A DNA stretch of 64,000 nt. Origin: Natrinema salaciae. GTDB lineage: Archaea > Halobacteriota > Halobacteria > Halobacteriales > Natrialbaceae. The notes below the pieces were generated by a model. The model saw only the letters and a program-made list of their open reading frames with translations. It did not search any database and had not been told where the DNA came from. The stretch covers positions 1 to 64,000 of the forward strand of contig NZ_FOFD01000008.1 of NCBI RefSeq assembly GCF_900110865.1, in the 5' to 3' direction. Made by a program: the position numbers and the translations under genes. Shown one piece after another: positions 955 to 39,950 of the stretch (the stretch's first letter is position 1; every line of letters starts with the position of its first letter).

Positions 955-1061
955 TGGCGAAAAATTGAGCGGGGCGATATCAGACGTAATAGCGGTGCTA
1001 CCCTACTTGTAGGATTGAGGGGGACCTCGTTAACCGTGATTGTCGAATATGCCTACAAGGG

Positions 1062-1067
1062 TTTATC
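1062..1067 (+). promoter_or_regulatory. TATA box of the 53-residue gene
   Basis: TTTATC lies 28 to 33 bases before the ATG at 1095, the usual distance for a leaderless or nearly leaderless haloarchaeal transcript. This supports the chosen start. Confidence 0.5.
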
Positions 1068-1094
1068 AGTGAAGCCGCGGCCAACCATGTGCAG

Positions 1095-1256
1095 ATGCGA
1101 CACCCACAAGATGACCTACTGATCGTTTACGCACTATCACTCCTTGCTAGGGAGCATAAAGGAACCGAGAGAGAAGACCGAGCATTGAATCTCGCGGCCG
1201 AGATCGCAGATCAACACGGACTAGCAGTAAGTGATGCAATTCGTCAGCTCGAGTAG
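1095..1256 (+). CDS. 53-residue hypothetical protein
   Basis: A complete small frame beginning MRHPQDDLLIVYALSLLA and ending DAIRQLE. It is predicted to be nearly all helical, with a middle segment rich in acidic and basic residues (REHKGTEREDRALNLAA) and a helix-turn-helix-like second half. It has no membrane segment or cysteine. The TATA box at 1062 sits at the right distance for a leaderless start, and the codon pattern looks coding. Its place between the possible replication gene and the AT-rich cargo suggests a provirus gene, perhaps a small DNA-binding or copy-control protein, but the function is not recognised. Confidence 0.6.
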   Translation: MRHPQDDLLIVYALSLLAREHKGTEREDRALNLAAEIADQHGLAVSDAIRQLE

Positions 1257-1383
1257 AGAGTGTTCCCAAGGTGACAGCGCCAAAAATTACAGCGCCCCAC
1301 CCTGCCTCCGCACGCAGATCTCCAGTTGAAGCACACGAAACAAGGGTCTGGGCATCTACTCCTTCTCACATTTCGAAGCCATA

Positions 1384-1908
1384 TCATATGTTAATAGATA
1401 TTGATGCCCAAACTAATACTAGGAATACTGTCCAACGATGGCTACGTCCTTGAGCAGTAGTTTTGACCCACTGCTCTACGTCTTCTAACTCAAGAACACG
1501 TTCCACTTCAAAACGGTTTTGGAGGAGCTTATGGGTGTTTCCATTGACATCCACCACGAGTAGAGCAGTTTGGTCTGTACGGCTGGCTCCTCCGGGACCG
1601 AACCCAATACCTGAACTATTTGAATCATCACTAATTAGAGCTATTTCTACTAAGTCACGATCAACTGAAGTATTGGCTTGTATCGCTTTCTCAAGCTCTC
1701 GAAATCCTCGATCACCTGGATGAAGAACACCTGCTTGCATTTCATCATCTAAGTCGTCATCGTCTTCAGACAGAGATTTCAACTCTTCAATTCCCACTTC
1801 TGCTCTTTTCCGGTAAAACGAATGTCTTGGATATAAAATGGGAACCACCGCAATAACACCTGAAAGGACTATATTCACTATCTGAAGTATCTCCATCGGT
1901 ACGAGCAT
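1384..1908 (-). CDS. Hypothetical membrane protein, 174 residues, AT-rich accessory gene
   Basis: The N-terminal membrane segment (about residues 5-27, MEILQIVNIVLSGVIAVV) is followed by a soluble region of about 120 residues with an acidic patch (SLSEDDDDLDDEM), and then a hydrophobic C-terminal helix (WTVFLVLVWASISI). The soluble part contains a glycine-rich turn (SGIGFGPGGASR). An alternative start is the ATG at 1896. It lies 54 bases downstream of the 302-residue membrane gene on the same strand, so the two probably form one unit. Base composition is much lower in GC than the viral structural genes, which points to separate acquisition. No family was recognised. A role as provirus cargo, such as exclusion or defence, is only inference. 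Confidence 0.6.
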   Translation of the reverse strand: MLVPMEILQIVNIVLSGVIAVVPILYPRHSFYRKRAEVGIEELKSLSEDDDDLDDEMQAGVLHPGDRGFRELEKAIQANTSVDRDLVEIALISDDSNSSGIGFGPGGASRTDQTALLVVDVNGNTHKLLQNRFEVERVLELEDVEQWVKTTAQGRSHRWTVFLVLVWASISINI

Positions 1909-1962
1909 TTCTCCGTATCACATTTCTATGAGTCCGGCGACATTGAAAAAGTCTCTCCGTCG

Positions 1963-2871
1963 CTATGGTACATAGAAGAACAGCCAATAACTGATACTTC
2001 CATAAACACCCATTGTTGCAAGATGGTGTGTGTTTCCTTGGAGGAACCGACTGAGCGATTGAGACCCATATGCTAGATACCAGAACCCAATAAGGTGCCG
2101 AACGGCCATAATCGCGGCCAGTAACAATAGACCACCTACTATAGGGAATCCAGTAAACGACAATATCAAGCTCACCGTACTGTATCCCACAGCGAGTATA
2201 ATTCCGCTTCCGAAAAACATCCGAGCCATACTTGGGTGAGACCGTTCATCCTTGTCCATTTCCTTTACAAAATCATGAAGTGTGTTCCACTTCTCGATGT
2301 CCTTTTCAGGAATGACGCCTGGTTCCTTCAAAATAAAGTATGCGAGTTCAAAGTGAAAAGTTGCGAGTCTGGATAGTAACAGACCATGTAACGGATTATC
2401 GGTCTCTTCCTTTCCGTTCTGAACGGCCAATCCTTTCGTGAAAAACGCCGAACCCCACCAGATTCGATAGTCTCTAAAAATGAGTTCCTGTAACACTACG
2501 ATGAGCAAGACCATCACTATCAGTACGGAGGAAACCATGATGGTTCCTGTCGCCCAATCCCCGACTGCACTAAGAACTGTGGTGCTAATCTGAAGAACGC
2601 ATACGATTGTTAATAACTCAATCAGTCGTAGAGTACCGCTTAGGATTGTCTCTTCTTCGGCGAATTTTCCAATAACCCCCATTCTACGAACGAGAGTTAA
2701 AACAAGCAAAGAGAGAGCGAAGAGGGTAATTATCAAGGAGTGTTCTGTTTCTGAACTTATAGAAGTAAGAGTAGCTGTTGCGATTAAGGCTGTGAACGCT
2801 ATCTCGAAATCAACGGACTCCGGTTGCTCTTTCTCAAATATTAAATCGACTAATCGGTTAGAATCCGCCAT
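1963..2871 (-). CDS. Multi-pass membrane protein, 302 residues, AT-rich accessory gene
   Basis: About six to eight hydrophobic segments are visible: roughly residues 27-60 (two), 84-130 (two), then a soluble stretch of about 90 residues with PEKDIEKWNTLHDFVKEM, and two or three more helices from residue 220 to the end, which finishes in YWLFFYVP. The soluble insert between membrane blocks could be a sensor or enzymatic loop, but no catalytic motif was found. The start is the ATG at 2871; upstream bases 2872-3117 hold no gene. It heads a two-gene AT-rich unit with the 174-residue protein. The family is unknown to me. The position between provirus genes makes it likely cargo. Confidence 0.65.
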   Translation of the reverse strand: MADSNRLVDLIFEKEQPESVDFEIAFTALIATATLTSISSETEHSLIITLFALSLLVLTLVRRMGVIGKFAEEETILSGTLRLIELLTIVCVLQISTTVLSAVGDWATGTIMVSSVLIVMVLLIVVLQELIFRDYRIWWGSAFFTKGLAVQNGKEETDNPLHGLLLSRLATFHFELAYFILKEPGVIPEKDIEKWNTLHDFVKEMDKDERSHPSMARMFFGSGIILAVGYSTVSLILSFTGFPIVGGLLLLAAIMAVRHLIGFWYLAYGSQSLSRFLQGNTHHLATMGVYGSISYWLFFYVP

Positions 2872-3117
2872 CTCTCAGAACATTCTATTCGGACGATATG
2901 AATCCCCGCGTTTGTTCTGTATTGGCGCAACTCCGTATTGTCGCTATTCCAATCGTGGAGAGAACTTCCGACATTTACTGAGACAAATCACATCCAGAAT
3001 GATAGACACAAACGCTGTATTCAGCAAGTCGATCTCGACAGCCTTCAGAGAACCGAGTCTCACCCCGATATCTGTATTACCTGTACTCATTGATGCAGTG
3101 GGTTTCTGTTATCTTGA

Positions 3118-8532: not shown

Positions 8533-9030
<498 letters not shown>

Positions 9031-9053
9031 AGGTAACGAGTTGCCCGCCGGAT

Positions 9054-9242
9054 ATGGCGATTCGAAAACTGCAGGAAGTCGGTGGCGGGTCGACTGGTGT
9101 GACCATCCCGAAAGACGATCTCGTCCTCGAGGAGGTACTCGACAAGGACGGGCAACTCGATGGGGACTATCATGCTCATGTCAACTACGAGGGCGAAGGA
9201 GAATGGACGCTGAAGCTCATCGAGTTTGATACCGACGAATGA
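9054..9242 (+). CDS. AbrB/SpoVT-like DNA-binding protein, 62 residues
   Basis: It begins MAIRKLQEVGGGSTGVTIPK, the swapped-hairpin AbrB pattern of a short strand, a glycine-rich turn and a V-T-I-P-K strand, then an acidic second half (EGEGEWTLKLIEFDTDE). Proteins of this family are small dimeric transcription regulators. It is divergent from the structural operon with only about 86 bases between the starts, so it is a good candidate regulator of virion gene expression. The leaderless start is supported by the TATA at 9022-9030. Confidence 0.6.
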   Translation: MAIRKLQEVGGGSTGVTIPKDDLVLEEVLDKDGQLDGDYHAHVNYEGEGEWTLKLIEFDTDE

Positions 9243-9273
9243 GAAAATCCACCGAAACCGGGTCTTTGAGACT

Positions 9274-9287
9274 GACCCCTTGGGGTC
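9274..9287. terminator. Perfect 14-bp palindrome after the AbrB-like gene
   Basis: GACCCCTTGGGGTC lies about 30 bases past the AbrB-like stop codon. It may be a terminator hairpin or an operator; the rest of 9288-9487 shows no convincing gene. Confidence 0.35.
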
Positions 9288-9487
9288 GCACTCAGATGTA
9301 TCGGGAGACCTCGATGTATGCACCCTGCCGTGGGCGATGGGCTCGTGAGGTGCATAGAATCGGGGCCGATCCGGCCAGTCTCCGCCGTGATCACGCTGGG
9401 CCCCCGACTCCCATTCATAAAGCATCGACCGGCCGCTCACCTGCGAGCGACGCGAATCGACCCCCAGTGCATACCCTCGCTTAAACC

Positions 9488-9748
9488 ATGACCAAACGCA
9501 CCAGCCTGAAGCTCACCGATGAACGCCAGCGAAAACTCGACCGCGCGAGCGCGATCGTCGCAGAAGACGAGTACGATGACCCACCGATGTCCGTCGTTAT
9601 CGATGCTGCACTTACGCATTTAGTAGAGAGTAAGCAGAACATCGACGATGCCCGTGGCGAATTCGATCCCGAGACGATCCAAGCGATCGCAAATACGTCA
9701 GTTATCGGACTTCATTATCGGACATCGATTGAAAGTAAGTGGCGATGA
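9488..9748 (+). CDS. Ribbon-helix-helix-like protein, 86 residues
   Basis: It starts MTKRTSLKLTDERQRKLDRA, typical of ribbon-helix-helix DNA-binding proteins (a basic beta strand, then two helices: KLTDERQRKLDRASAI and PPMSVVIDAALTHLVES). The C-terminal 30 residues are unlike the family and rich in serine. Many haloarchaeal viruses and plasmids carry such genes as regulators. It is convergent with the AT-rich 332-residue gene, with only 11 bases between the two stops. Confidence 0.6.
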   Translation: MTKRTSLKLTDERQRKLDRASAIVAEDEYDDPPMSVVIDAALTHLVESKQNIDDARGEFDPETIQAIANTSVIGLHYRTSIESKWR

Positions 9749-9759
9749 TAACAAGTCGA

Positions 9760-10758
9760 TCATTCACCACTCTCATCTAAATGAGTGTGGAGTATATCGA
9801 ATTTGTTCATTAGATCGTCTCTGGCACACGATAGTATATTCTTGATTTCAAACCTCAAATCTTGGTTATATTCAATAACATTCACTAATTCATTAATCTC
9901 GCTCTCATATTGAGGGTCGGATCTTAATTCAAGTAGAAATTCAGAATGTCTCTCAAATATATTTTCTGGGCTAATCTCGATTTCTCGTTGAGTATAAGAT
10001 CCCTCTGGATATTCTTCAGTATATATTTTAGGTTCTAAATCAGGTTCGGACTGTGTAGCTTTCAATATTAAATTTGATAGTTCTTGGGAGAAATCATCAA
10101 CAACCTTACCGGGGTTATCTGGATAGGCATCATTCCAATTTCGTCCACCAAAAGCTTGTTCTCGATCTATTTTCTCTCCTGCATCATCCAATTGAGATAT
10201 AAATTCATCCCTCTCTTCATCAGGTAGTTCGTTGTAAAATTTGTTCGGAATCTCTTCAGAAATGTCGCTAACAAGTGAACTCCTTTTTTGAGTATACTCT
10301 CTCCAATTTTCGTCATACGATTCCAGCTTCCCGTATATCTCTGTCTCTGCCTCTAATTCGATATCTACAATTATATGTTCTGGAACAGTTGATGAAACCG
10401 AACTTGGTGAAATTTCGGGTATTGGTGTGAATTCTCCATCTGTTTCGATAGTGTACCTATCCTGATCACGAAGCTCCTCGATTAAGCTATCGAATCCATC
10501 AATAATTAATACAATGACCGCATCACGTCGCTGTTGCTTTTTTGTCTCCTGAACCATATCTTTGGATGAGCTTACAGACAAATACGTTAGAGTCACTAAC
10601 ACTATGGTTGCAGTTGCAGTCACAAAACTTGTGAGAGCCGGGATAAAGTCAACAAGAGCTACGGTATTGTATGAAATATAAAGAAAATAAGCAGTAATAG
10701 ACCAGATAATGGATAGAATCAAAAAACAAAACCCCCACCCTATTTTCGCCGTGTCCAT
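9760..10758 (-). CDS. AT-rich membrane-anchored protein, 332 residues, provirus cargo
   Basis: Two N-terminal membrane helices (about residues 8-29 and 37-63) are followed by a short basic stretch (KKQQRRDAVIVLIID) and then a cytoplasmic domain of about 250 residues that is very rich in glutamate, serine and aspartate, with coiled-coil-like parts. No catalytic motif or family was recognised. The gene is markedly more AT-rich than the genes on both sides and sits between the repressor and the ribbon-helix-helix gene, a common place for viral morons. The two-helix-plus-cytoplasmic-domain design occurs in membrane-bound defence and exclusion proteins, but that link is inference from shape only. 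Confidence 0.65.
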   Translation of the reverse strand: MDTAKIGWGFCFLILSIIWSITAYFLYISYNTVALVDFIPALTSFVTATATIVLVTLTYLSVSSSKDMVQETKKQQRRDAVIVLIIDGFDSLIEELRDQDRYTIETDGEFTPIPEISPSSVSSTVPEHIIVDIELEAETEIYGKLESYDENWREYTQKRSSLVSDISEEIPNKFYNELPDEERDEFISQLDDAGEKIDREQAFGGRNWNDAYPDNPGKVVDDFSQELSNLILKATQSEPDLEPKIYTEEYPEGSYTQREIEISPENIFERHSEFLLELRSDPQYESEINELVNVIEYNQDLRFEIKNILSCARDDLMNKFDILHTHLDESGE

Positions 10759-10835
10759 ATGTCATAAACGAACTTCCGCCAGATAGTAATATGTATTCCC
10801 GACTTCTAATCACTAGTCGGTTTTCATCTCAAGAA

Positions 10836-11096
10836 CTAATCTTCAAGATTATTTGCACTAAACTCACCATCAAGGTACGCGCAACCTTGGTCAGTGATCC
10901 ACCAGACGTACGTTCGTCCCGCTTCCTTCGATCCGAGTAGGTTAGAGTCAGCAAGTGGATGTAATCGTTTCAGAATACCTGAGTTAGAGAATCCGAATTG
11001 ATCTGCTGTTTCTGCTGTGGTTACTACTGGGTCTGGAGACTTTGCTACGAACTCCAAAATCTGCTTATCATCCACGGTTTCCTCCCGGCCTGCCAT
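10836..11096 (-). CDS. Winged-helix repressor candidate of the provirus, 86 residues
   Basis: A compact winged-helix domain: VDDKQILEFVAKSPDPVVTT, then TAETADQFGFSNSGILKRLH as helix-turn-helix, then a wing strand pair (GRTYVWWITDQGCAYLDGEF). This is like haloarchaeal phage phiH1-type repressors and MarR-type regulators. It faces away from the integrase operon, and the intergenic region directly upstream holds short palindromes that look like its operators. It is the natural candidate for the lysogeny switch. The size is typical for single-domain viral repressors. Confidence 0.6.
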   Translation of the reverse strand: MAGREETVDDKQILEFVAKSPDPVVTTAETADQFGFSNSGILKRLHPLADSNLLGSKEAGRTYVWWITDQGCAYLDGEFSANNLED

Positions 11097-38212: not shown

Positions 38213-38506
38213 ATGGTCGTCTTCTCCGCCGGGTCCAAAGTGATCCTCTCCGACGACCAACACGACTCGATTCTCTTCTCGAACGTCGCGACGATGCCCG
38301 TGACGAGCTCGTCACGACGTCAGACAGCGACTGAGCACTCCTCTCCCAGAAGCAGATCTCCTATGTCTGCAACCGAACAGCCCTCGGCATCGGAACTCTT
38401 CTCGGGTTCTGGCACATCTGGCACCAGAACTGGTGGTACCTTCCTGATCTTCGGCGTTCCGTTCCCCGTCTACTTCTGGCTCCTCCACATCACTGACGCC
38501 CCGTAG
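38213..38506 (+). pseudogene. Frameshifted small membrane protein gene
   Basis: One frame reads LSQKQISYVCNRTALGIGTL and LLGFWHIWHQNWWYL, then loses sense, while the next frame continues FLIFGVPFPVYFWLLHITDA to a TAG at 38504-38506. Joined, they make a plausible two-helix membrane protein. The upstream frame LERRDDARDELVTTSDSD ends in a stop, so the gene is broken more than once. The gap 38044-38557 holds nothing else. The original function is unknown. Confidence 0.35.
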
Positions 38507-38557: not shown

Positions 38558-38836
38558 TTACTCGTCATACGATTCTGCAAGGGTTTTCCCCATCCGATAC
38601 TTTTTCCAGAGAAGATCGTTACAAATAATAATGGTGAATCCGAGGCCAACGGATAGGACTGATTCTTTGAATAACTCGTGTCCTGGTAGAAACTCTGCTA
38701 CTATGAGTATAGGAAGCATTATTATTGCAATCCAAAAAGTCTGATACTCTGTTGGAGGGATACCAAGTACGTGCCGGATATACAATCCTGGTATCGCTAT
38801 ACTGGAGGCCAACAAGAGGTATATGACGTATTTCAT
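38558..38836 (-). CDS. Three-helix membrane protein next to the halocin-like gene
   Basis: 92 residues: MKYVIYLLLASSIAIPGLYI, then FWIAIIMLPILIVAEFLP, then a third helix VLSVGLGFTIIICNDLL and a basic tail (KKYRMGKTLAES). It lies 49 bases downstream of the halocin-like gene on the same strand, with the same low GC. Small membrane proteins beside bacteriocin genes often confer immunity or help export; that is the inferred role here. No family was recognised. Confidence 0.55.
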   Translation of the reverse strand: MKYVIYLLLASSIAIPGLYIRHVLGIPPTEYQTFWIAIIMLPILIVAEFLPGHELFKESVLSVGLGFTIIICNDLLWKKYRMGKTLAESYDE

Positions 38837-38885
38837 AGTGTTTTAAATAAATTGTTTGTATTTGAAAGCTCCTATTCAGTCAACC

Positions 38886-39911
38886 TCAGGTCGTGCAATT
38901 GGGAACAGGAATCGCTGTCGGGACTCCAGCATCTGATGGCCCACCAGTGGGACAGAAGAAGTAGACATCGGTGGGATTACAGACACCATCTATATCACTG
39001 ATCGCTGCGTCAAGAATCGCAACAAGAGCACATGCGCCCTCAATTGCAGCTGGGATAGCAAAGGAAATCGCACCAGCACCACCAGTGGCAATCGTTAGTC
39101 CGGTAGCACCGATAACGGCAGCAGCAGCAATGTAAGCACAAGCTTTGCCCGTATCGATTGTTACGCAGTGGGTGAAGCCGTTGTTTTCCATCGTCTGATT
39201 GAGCCCCGCAGGTGGCTCATTACCATCGACCGGACTAAGGACCTCACCTATACCATATATGTCTTCACCGAGGTCGACTGCGTCCTCGACCTTGTCGTTG
39301 TTCTTGACGAACTCTGCAGTCTCCTCCCACATGCCCGTCGCGCCGTCGACGATACTCTCCCCAGCATCGATGATCGTATCGATCGGGTCGTCCGGGATCG
39401 GATCGATCGGAAGCCAATCTCCGAACGGCATCGGGCCCTGGGAACTGGGGTCGTGGGAGGTCGTATACCCAGGCTTCGTCTCGACGATCTGGCTGTCCGT
39501 ATACACGTGACCAGCGTATACCCCGTGCTTGTTCACGACGGCTTTCAGCTTGATCTCGTTCGTATTGGCGGGCTGGAACGCCTTCAGCTCGACCGACGCG
39601 TTCGGCCTTCCGGGATTCTGTGTCGGAACGATCATCCCCGTGCCACCGACACCAGTCGGTGTCTCTTTCCTAGCAACCTGGAAGACGGATACCTGATCGA
39701 ACTGGGGCTGGAATCCCGCTTTAGTGAGCACTTCCGAAATCTTCTGATACTGCTGGGAGGACTTGACTGTCCCTACGAAATCGTGGGTGTTCTTTCGAGC
39801 GAGTGAGCCCTGAGCAAAGGCCACTGATCCGAGACCGACACTAGCAGCAGAACGGAGGAACCTCCGCTTCGTTGATTCGATATTGGATGTATTCGAGGTC
39901 TTTTTCATCAT
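38886..39911 (-). CDS. Halocin C8-like precursor: Tat signal, N-terminal domain and Cys-rich hydrophobic C-terminal peptide
   Basis: 341 residues from the ATG at 39911, chosen because a TATA (CTATTTATGG, 39941-39950, minus strand) lies 30 bases ahead; the longer start at 39944 would fall inside the promoter. The Tat motif KRRFLRSAASVGLGSVAFAQ is at about residues 15-34. A middle domain of about 210 residues is soluble. The last 98 residues contain six cysteines (249, 258, 294, 311, 320, 339) around a long hydrophobic glycine/alanine core (AYIAAAAVIGATGLTIATGG). Known: halocin C8 is made as a Tat-exported precursor with an N-terminal immunity domain and a Cys-rich, hydrophobic C-terminal peptide. 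The architecture matches; sequence identity is not obvious. Confidence 0.5.
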   Translation of the reverse strand: MMKKTSNTSNIESTKRRFLRSAASVGLGSVAFAQGSLARKNTHDFVGTVKSSQQYQKISEVLTKAGFQPQFDQVSVFQVARKETPTGVGGTGMIVPTQNPGRPNASVELKAFQPANTNEIKLKAVVNKHGVYAGHVYTDSQIVETKPGYTTSHDPSSQGPMPFGDWLPIDPIPDDPIDTIIDAGESIVDGATGMWEETAEFVKNNDKVEDAVDLGEDIYGIGEVLSPVDGNEPPAGLNQTMENNGFTHCVTIDTGKACAYIAAAAVIGATGLTIATGGAGAISFAIPAAIEGACALVAILDAAISDIDGVCNPTDVYFFCPTGGPSDAGVPTAIPVPNCTT

Positions 39912-39940: not shown

Positions 39941-39950
39941 CCATAAATAG
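39941..39950 (-). promoter_or_regulatory. TATA box of the halocin-like gene
   Basis: CTATTTATGG gives a leaderless message with the ATG at 39911. The surrounding 39912-40423 is AT-rich and shows no other gene; arginine/serine-rich frames there are not convincing. Confidence 0.6.

Follow-up and report, generated by a model that had tools for sequence, protein, structure and literature searches.

We have focussed our analysis on a cassette of two genes in a 64,000-nucleotide stretch of the genome of the haloarchaeon Natrinema salaciae (contig NZ_FOFD01000008.1, positions 1 to 64,000 of the forward strand; hereafter the window), one of them coding for a cysteine-rich precursor protein and the other for a small membrane protein. 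Judging from the sequences, this locus probably codes for an antimicrobial precursor of the halocin C8 type carrying a new class of cargo, accompanied by a membrane protein that would confer immunity. The halocin C8 precursor, ProC8, is described as exported by the twin-arginine translocation (Tat) pathway and then matured outside the cell into HalI, its immunity part, and the peptide (PMC11509114).

The resemblance starts with the layout of the precursor. The translated open reading frame (ORF; 38886-39911, minus strand), which opens with MMKKTSNTSNIESTKRRFLRSA, agrees in coordinates and translation with the preliminary description of a 341-residue protein bearing six cysteines in a C-terminal part of 98 residues. 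These are all the cysteines of the protein (C249, C258, C294, C311, C320, and C339), and the binomial chance of finding at least six in 98 residues at the local cysteine frequency of 0.94% is 3e-4. The same 98 residues are hydrophobic (grand average of hydropathy 0.83), with a mass of 9.4 kDa and an isoelectric point of 4.05. They are preceded by an acidic linker, for which AlphaFold predicts at low confidence helices at residues 176-204 and 208-217, by an N-terminal domain (N-domain), and by a Tat-type signal. The proposal of a Tat signal stands in part, with the motif T-K-R-R-F-L-R and a hydrophobic stretch in place; the motif fits the Tat consensus loosely, and in the closest fused relatives it reads S-K-R-K-F-L-R or T-K-R-D-V-L-R, a KR form rather than a strict RR. 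A Tat signal, an N-domain, and a cysteine-rich end are also the typical layout of the proteins matching TIGR04449 (halocin_C8_dom), which are present in 53 of the 392 genomes of the order that make up our survey set (the window's own genome gave no TIGR04449 match). Moreover, a small membrane ORF lies directly downstream in 18 of 29 C8-type loci, compared with 2 of 29 in the divergent control and 2 of 64 ORFs from the window. The halocin C8-like arrangement suggested earlier is supported.

The N-domain (residues 35-137) is remotely homologous to the HalI-type N-domain of halocin C8 precursors, a relationship supported by profile comparisons and by structure models. When both were compared as profiles, without signal sequences, the match had an E-value of 9.7e-5 and a score of 35.1, while 147 column shuffles scored no higher than 12.9 and the reversed profile scored 10.8. 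In searches of the genomes, the profile of the window family reached the C8-type precursor G001:C36 (E 2.8e-7) with the signal included and that of G127 (E 9.5e-4) without it. The AlphaFold models of both N-domains, of good confidence, display the same predicted topology, two helices of ~12 residues followed by about five antiparallel strands. The comparison with HalI recommended for the middle domain in the preliminary description has given remote homology. A title cited in PMC11509114 names the N-terminal helix-loop-helix of HalI as essential for immunity, and the two helices predicted here may correspond to it.

The C-terminal domain has a different affiliation. Neither the TIGR04449 hidden Markov model of NCBIfam nor profile-profile comparison with C8 C-terminal domains gave a match, and on this basis we reject its membership of the halocin C8 peptide family. 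It has a conserved cysteine pattern of its own, as expected for the new class that had been suspected. Four cysteines are invariant across nine aligned sequences. Their spacing is 35-16-27 both in the window precursor and in L004, and the corresponding values are 37-15-26 for L002 and 39-14-25 for L003. The window precursor shares an additional pair, C249 and C320, with L005 and L084; L002, L003, and L004 lack it, and across the fused forms and L004 neither of these two cysteines occurs without the other. This supports a class defined by four core cysteines and an optional third pair.

Relatives of the precursor were found in only 4 of the 392 genomes, the one containing the window included. 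Besides a second copy in that same genome (L005), they occur once each in the same genus (L002), in the same family (L003), and in a different family (L004), and in all four loci a small multi-helix ORF comes after the precursor relative. The second copy is N-terminally truncated and has 57% identity in the precursor and 63% in the membrane gene; at the DNA level ~1.16 kb align with the window at 69% identity, a stretch that takes in the convergent gene remnant located beyond the membrane gene. A more distant fused relative, L084, aligns over its cysteine-rich end (E 5.3e-6, score 35.9 vs. a maximum of 19.4 in 200 shuffles). The precursor protein alone, used as query against the genome contigs, found nothing, and no relative of the cassette was found in the plasmid and viral collections (IMG/VR).

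Five genomes examined (L004, L046, L047, L049, and L050) encode the two domains in separate genes: the first (ORF1) has the Tat signal and the N-domain, and the second (ORF2), which lacks a signal, has the cysteine-rich domain. Three of these loci could be assigned by sequence identity, L050 to Natronobiforma cellulositropha, L049 to Halobacteria archaeon HArc-gm2, and L047 to Halarchaeum nitratireducens, and L070, L071, and L072, respectively, are split-gene loci of these organisms. The stop of ORF1 overlaps or almost touches the start of ORF2. At four of the five loci a GGAGGT ribosome-binding sequence lies within the end of ORF1. We take the two genes to be translationally coupled. Fused and split forms are homologous in both parts, with E 3.9e-7 for the N-domains (score 45.9, column shuffles reaching 21.9) and E 7.2e-7 for the C-domains (score 44.5, column shuffles reaching 19.7). 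The cysteine-rich ORF of L004 taken alone gave a weak match (E 0.02) and has the window's cysteine spacing exactly. The split cysteine-rich domain differs from that of the window in having an insert and extra cysteines, and its acidic tail comes after the core, while in the window precursor the acidic part precedes it. There is a hint that this is a permutation, as the motif shared by both beats all 81 background proteins, though for only two of the four fused proteins. Small membrane ORFs follow in L046, L050, and L071. The split-class cysteine-rich domain did not match the halocin C8 C-terminal domain either, and we found no published description of these split-gene relatives. The boundary between the two genes falls where a cut near residue 240 would free the peptide of the fused form, and would fit the predicted processing. 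At another split locus (L081, 1372-2192) the second ORF still has its start and its acidic tail, and the membrane ORF still follows it, but the cysteine-rich core is gone, which reads as an internal deletion in the cargo.

The membrane gene, already noted as a small membrane protein 49 bases after the precursor, begins 49 bases past the stop codon of the latter. Genes of this type are intact at ten loci. At two of these, the window and L002, the precursor is intact too and adjoins it, while at the other eight (L005, L092, L093, L095, L096, L099, L100, and L101) the precursor is missing, degenerate, or truncated. An eleventh locus, L102, has a membrane gene that is itself broken, and at L090 what is left of a precursor precedes an open frame resembling, by eye, the other type of membrane gene, that of L003. 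Bacteriocin immunity genes are known to be kept without the weapon, for example in E. coli (PMC12546727). A small membrane protein encoded beside the precursor and orphaned at eight loci is what is found for immunity genes of the bacteriocin type, and the pattern of loss is best read as that of orphan immunity genes; it indirectly supports the role of the 92-residue protein as immunity protein. Pairwise ratios of nonsynonymous to synonymous substitution rates (dN/dS) are mostly 0.19-0.35, with 0.5-0.7 among L099-L101, which supports selection in the orphans without proving it, because their common ancestors may still have had precursors. Both L101 and the intact locus L002 adjoin a gene that we take, from its protein sequence, to be hisG. 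At this chromosomal site the intact cassette occupies L002 1-1424, and the membrane gene is found alone at L101 1486-2721.

The mechanism that we infer would begin in the cytoplasm, where the precursor would fold so that its HalI-like N-domain, a helix-loop-helix with a beta sheet, shields the C-terminal peptide, which is hydrophobic and predicted to be rich in disulfides. The folded unit would be exported by Tat, and an outside protease would then cut it near residue 240. The freed peptide, of about 9 kDa, would have two disulfides among C258, C294, C311, and C339 and, where the further pair is present, C249-C320 as a third, and may act on membranes of haloarchaeal relatives. Both the N-domain, in the role reported for HalI, and the 92-residue membrane protein would protect the producer. 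At the split loci the signal-less peptide may leave as passenger of the N-domain protein that bears the Tat signal. Such co-export of signal-less partners is a known mechanism of Tat (PMC4273604).

Several points weigh against this scheme. The link of the N-domain to halocin C8 precursors is remote; no known antimicrobial peptide matches the C-terminal domain, and the AlphaFold modelling suggested for it yielded no confident model; a strict twin arginine is absent in two of three fused relatives; the peptide gene of the split loci lacks a signal; and the dN/dS values may include evolution from before the membrane genes were orphaned. The precursor could instead be a Tat-exported, disulfide-rich protein of the cell surface, or one inserted in the membrane, with a housekeeping or adhesive function and the small membrane protein as its partner. 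Its hydrophobic C-terminal domain and the missing antimicrobial match would suit such a protein, but the patchy distribution and the split genes suit a housekeeping role badly, the precursor often decays while the membrane gene persists, and the N-domain is homologous to halocin C8 precursors, all of which make this alternative unlikely. One of the two results that had been named beforehand as refuting a halocin, a C-terminal segment that matches a known structural domain foreign to bacteriocins, did not turn up in the structure and domain-family comparisons. Neither the precursor nor the membrane protein scored above the curated cut-offs of Pfam or NCBIfam, and the precursor had no meaningful match in PDB; no solved or viral structural relatives were found. 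A sub-threshold match of the precursor to PilA (E 0.067) was discarded as a chance effect of the Gly/Ala-rich stretch.

Another possibility keeps the antimicrobial as proposed and assigns the membrane protein to export or maturation, which would leave immunity to the N-domain alone, the role reported for HalI. It deserves some consideration, as a minority view; however, such a factor would be expected to be lost with its substrate, and the gene is intact at eight loci lacking an intact precursor. Of the two roles offered for this protein in the preliminary description, immunity is thus indirectly favoured and export is less likely. That the C-terminal domain is simply a divergent halocin C8 peptide seems very improbable: the precursor layout is the same and the N-domain related, but the TIGR04449 and profile-profile matches are missing and the cysteines differ in number and spacing. 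We give still less credit to the cassette being cargo of a virus or mobile element that serves the life cycle of that element. The low-GC island and the transposase genes beside L002 and L004 would agree with it, but there is no meaningful match of either protein to PHROGs, no relative in IMG/VR or among plasmids, and no match to a viral fold at E <=0.001. The best reading of these comparisons is that the window system is a variant of the halocin C8 kind lying outside the halocin C8 peptide family.

Like ProC8 (HalI plus HalC8), the window precursor has a predicted Tat-type signal, a related N-domain with the same predicted topology, and a cysteine-rich hydrophobic C-terminal peptide, and many members of the halocin C8 family share the small membrane ORF downstream. 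The differences are in the signal motif, of KR type in the window family, in the existence of relatives with split genes, which here (L070, L071, and L072) have homologous N-domains and cysteine-rich domains in two coupled genes, the second signal-less, and in the cargo. The halocin_C8_dom model has 69 positions with about ten cysteines, whereas the window class has four or six with other spacing, and no test performed here gave homology between the two peptides. A further parallel is provided by HmHapP (HFX_0892) and the halocin H4 precursors of Haloferax mediterranei, described as secreted proteins from which proteolysis frees an antagonistic fragment (PMC12893001), as we propose for the window precursor. 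Compared by description only, HapP differs in freeing an N-terminal helical fragment, and a cysteine-rich C-terminal peptide does not figure in the description used for this comparison.

The coordinates of the cassette are collected in Table 1. An alternative upstream start of the precursor ORF, at 39944, is located within CTATTTATGG. This sequence resembles an archaeal TATA box and lies ~30 bases upstream of 39911; since it covers the longer start, translation from 39911 is likelier.

Table 1. Features of the cassette and its flank in the window.
Feature	Position	Strand	Basis
Precursor gene, 341 residues	38886-39911	minus	Open frame with Tat-type signal; related genes in other genomes
Candidate TATA box of precursor gene (CTATTTATGG)	39941-39950	minus	Sequence and distance to start codon; putative
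Residues 1-34, Tat-type signal (TKRRFLR and a hydrophobic stretch)	39810-39911	minus	Sequence; relatives with KR-type motif
Residues 35-137, HalI-like N-domain (strands preceded by two helices)	39501-39809	minus	Profile match to N-domains of halocin C8 precursors; same predicted topology
Residues 138-243, acidic linker predicted to form amphipathic helices	39183-39500	minus	Low-confidence AlphaFold helices and motif hint
Residues 244-341, cysteine-rich hydrophobic C-terminal peptide	38889-39182	minus	Cysteine pattern conserved in fused and split relatives
92-residue membrane protein (P0002), putative immunity protein	38558-38836	minus	Adjoins precursor in relatives, kept where precursor is lost
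Frameshifted remnant of convergent gene	38392-38506 (about)	plus	DNA and protein similarity to L006

The island of low GC reported around the cassette is real, with values of 0.55 for the precursor and 0.41 for the membrane gene vs. 0.63 for the whole window, and so is the nearby broken membrane gene, a frameshifted gene end that also adjoins the second cassette copy of the same genome. Transfer, which had been suggested from both, is plausible: relatives in 4 of the 392 genomes, the low GC, and the transposase genes adjoining the related loci L002 and L004 are consistent with the cassette having moved horizontally. Two more low-GC stretches (0.40-0.50) are found in the window at 1001-3000 and 9001-11000.

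Other precursor-like genes carry different cysteine-rich ends. The same genome has a third one (L106, G000:C2:436500-437381, minus strand) of about 293 residues, with an RR-type Tat signal and 11 cysteines, adjoining ATP-binding cassette (ABC) transporter genes. Its cysteine-rich end resembles that of L088 (E 4.3e-5), which forms one class with that of L048 (E 2.7e-7). Two related-looking precursors, L085 973-1965 and L087 1267-2241, have 15 cysteines and no small membrane ORF that we could see; this type is possibly a further cargo class. There is also a protein of 221 residues (L051 1168-1833) with an RR-type Tat signal and a short, dense terminal cysteine cluster, which matches the full precursor profile weakly. 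For the L106/L048/L088 and L085/L087 classes, the N-domain homology consists of weak matches obtained partly via the signal region.

Archaeal antimicrobial peptides of known sequence are few, halocin C8 being the best described (PMC11509114). It is plausible, from these comparisons, that a common HalI-type carrier has several unrelated cargoes. One could go further and think of a polymorphic haloarchaeal weapon system, in which a Tat-exported carrier of the HalI type would bear interchangeable, unrelated cysteine-rich cargoes (C8, the window class, L048/L088, and the 15-cysteine type), fused or as passengers, with membrane immunity proteins that persist as orphans; we consider this broader view possible, if somewhat short of an even bet. 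The finding of a HalI-like domain on a different class of peptide would separate the carrier and immunity part from the cargo, and provides a starting point for finding additional classes. With the split-gene forms, the joint exit of HalI and peptide becomes a direct two-component question, and the orphan membrane genes provide a concrete candidate for the immunity gene.
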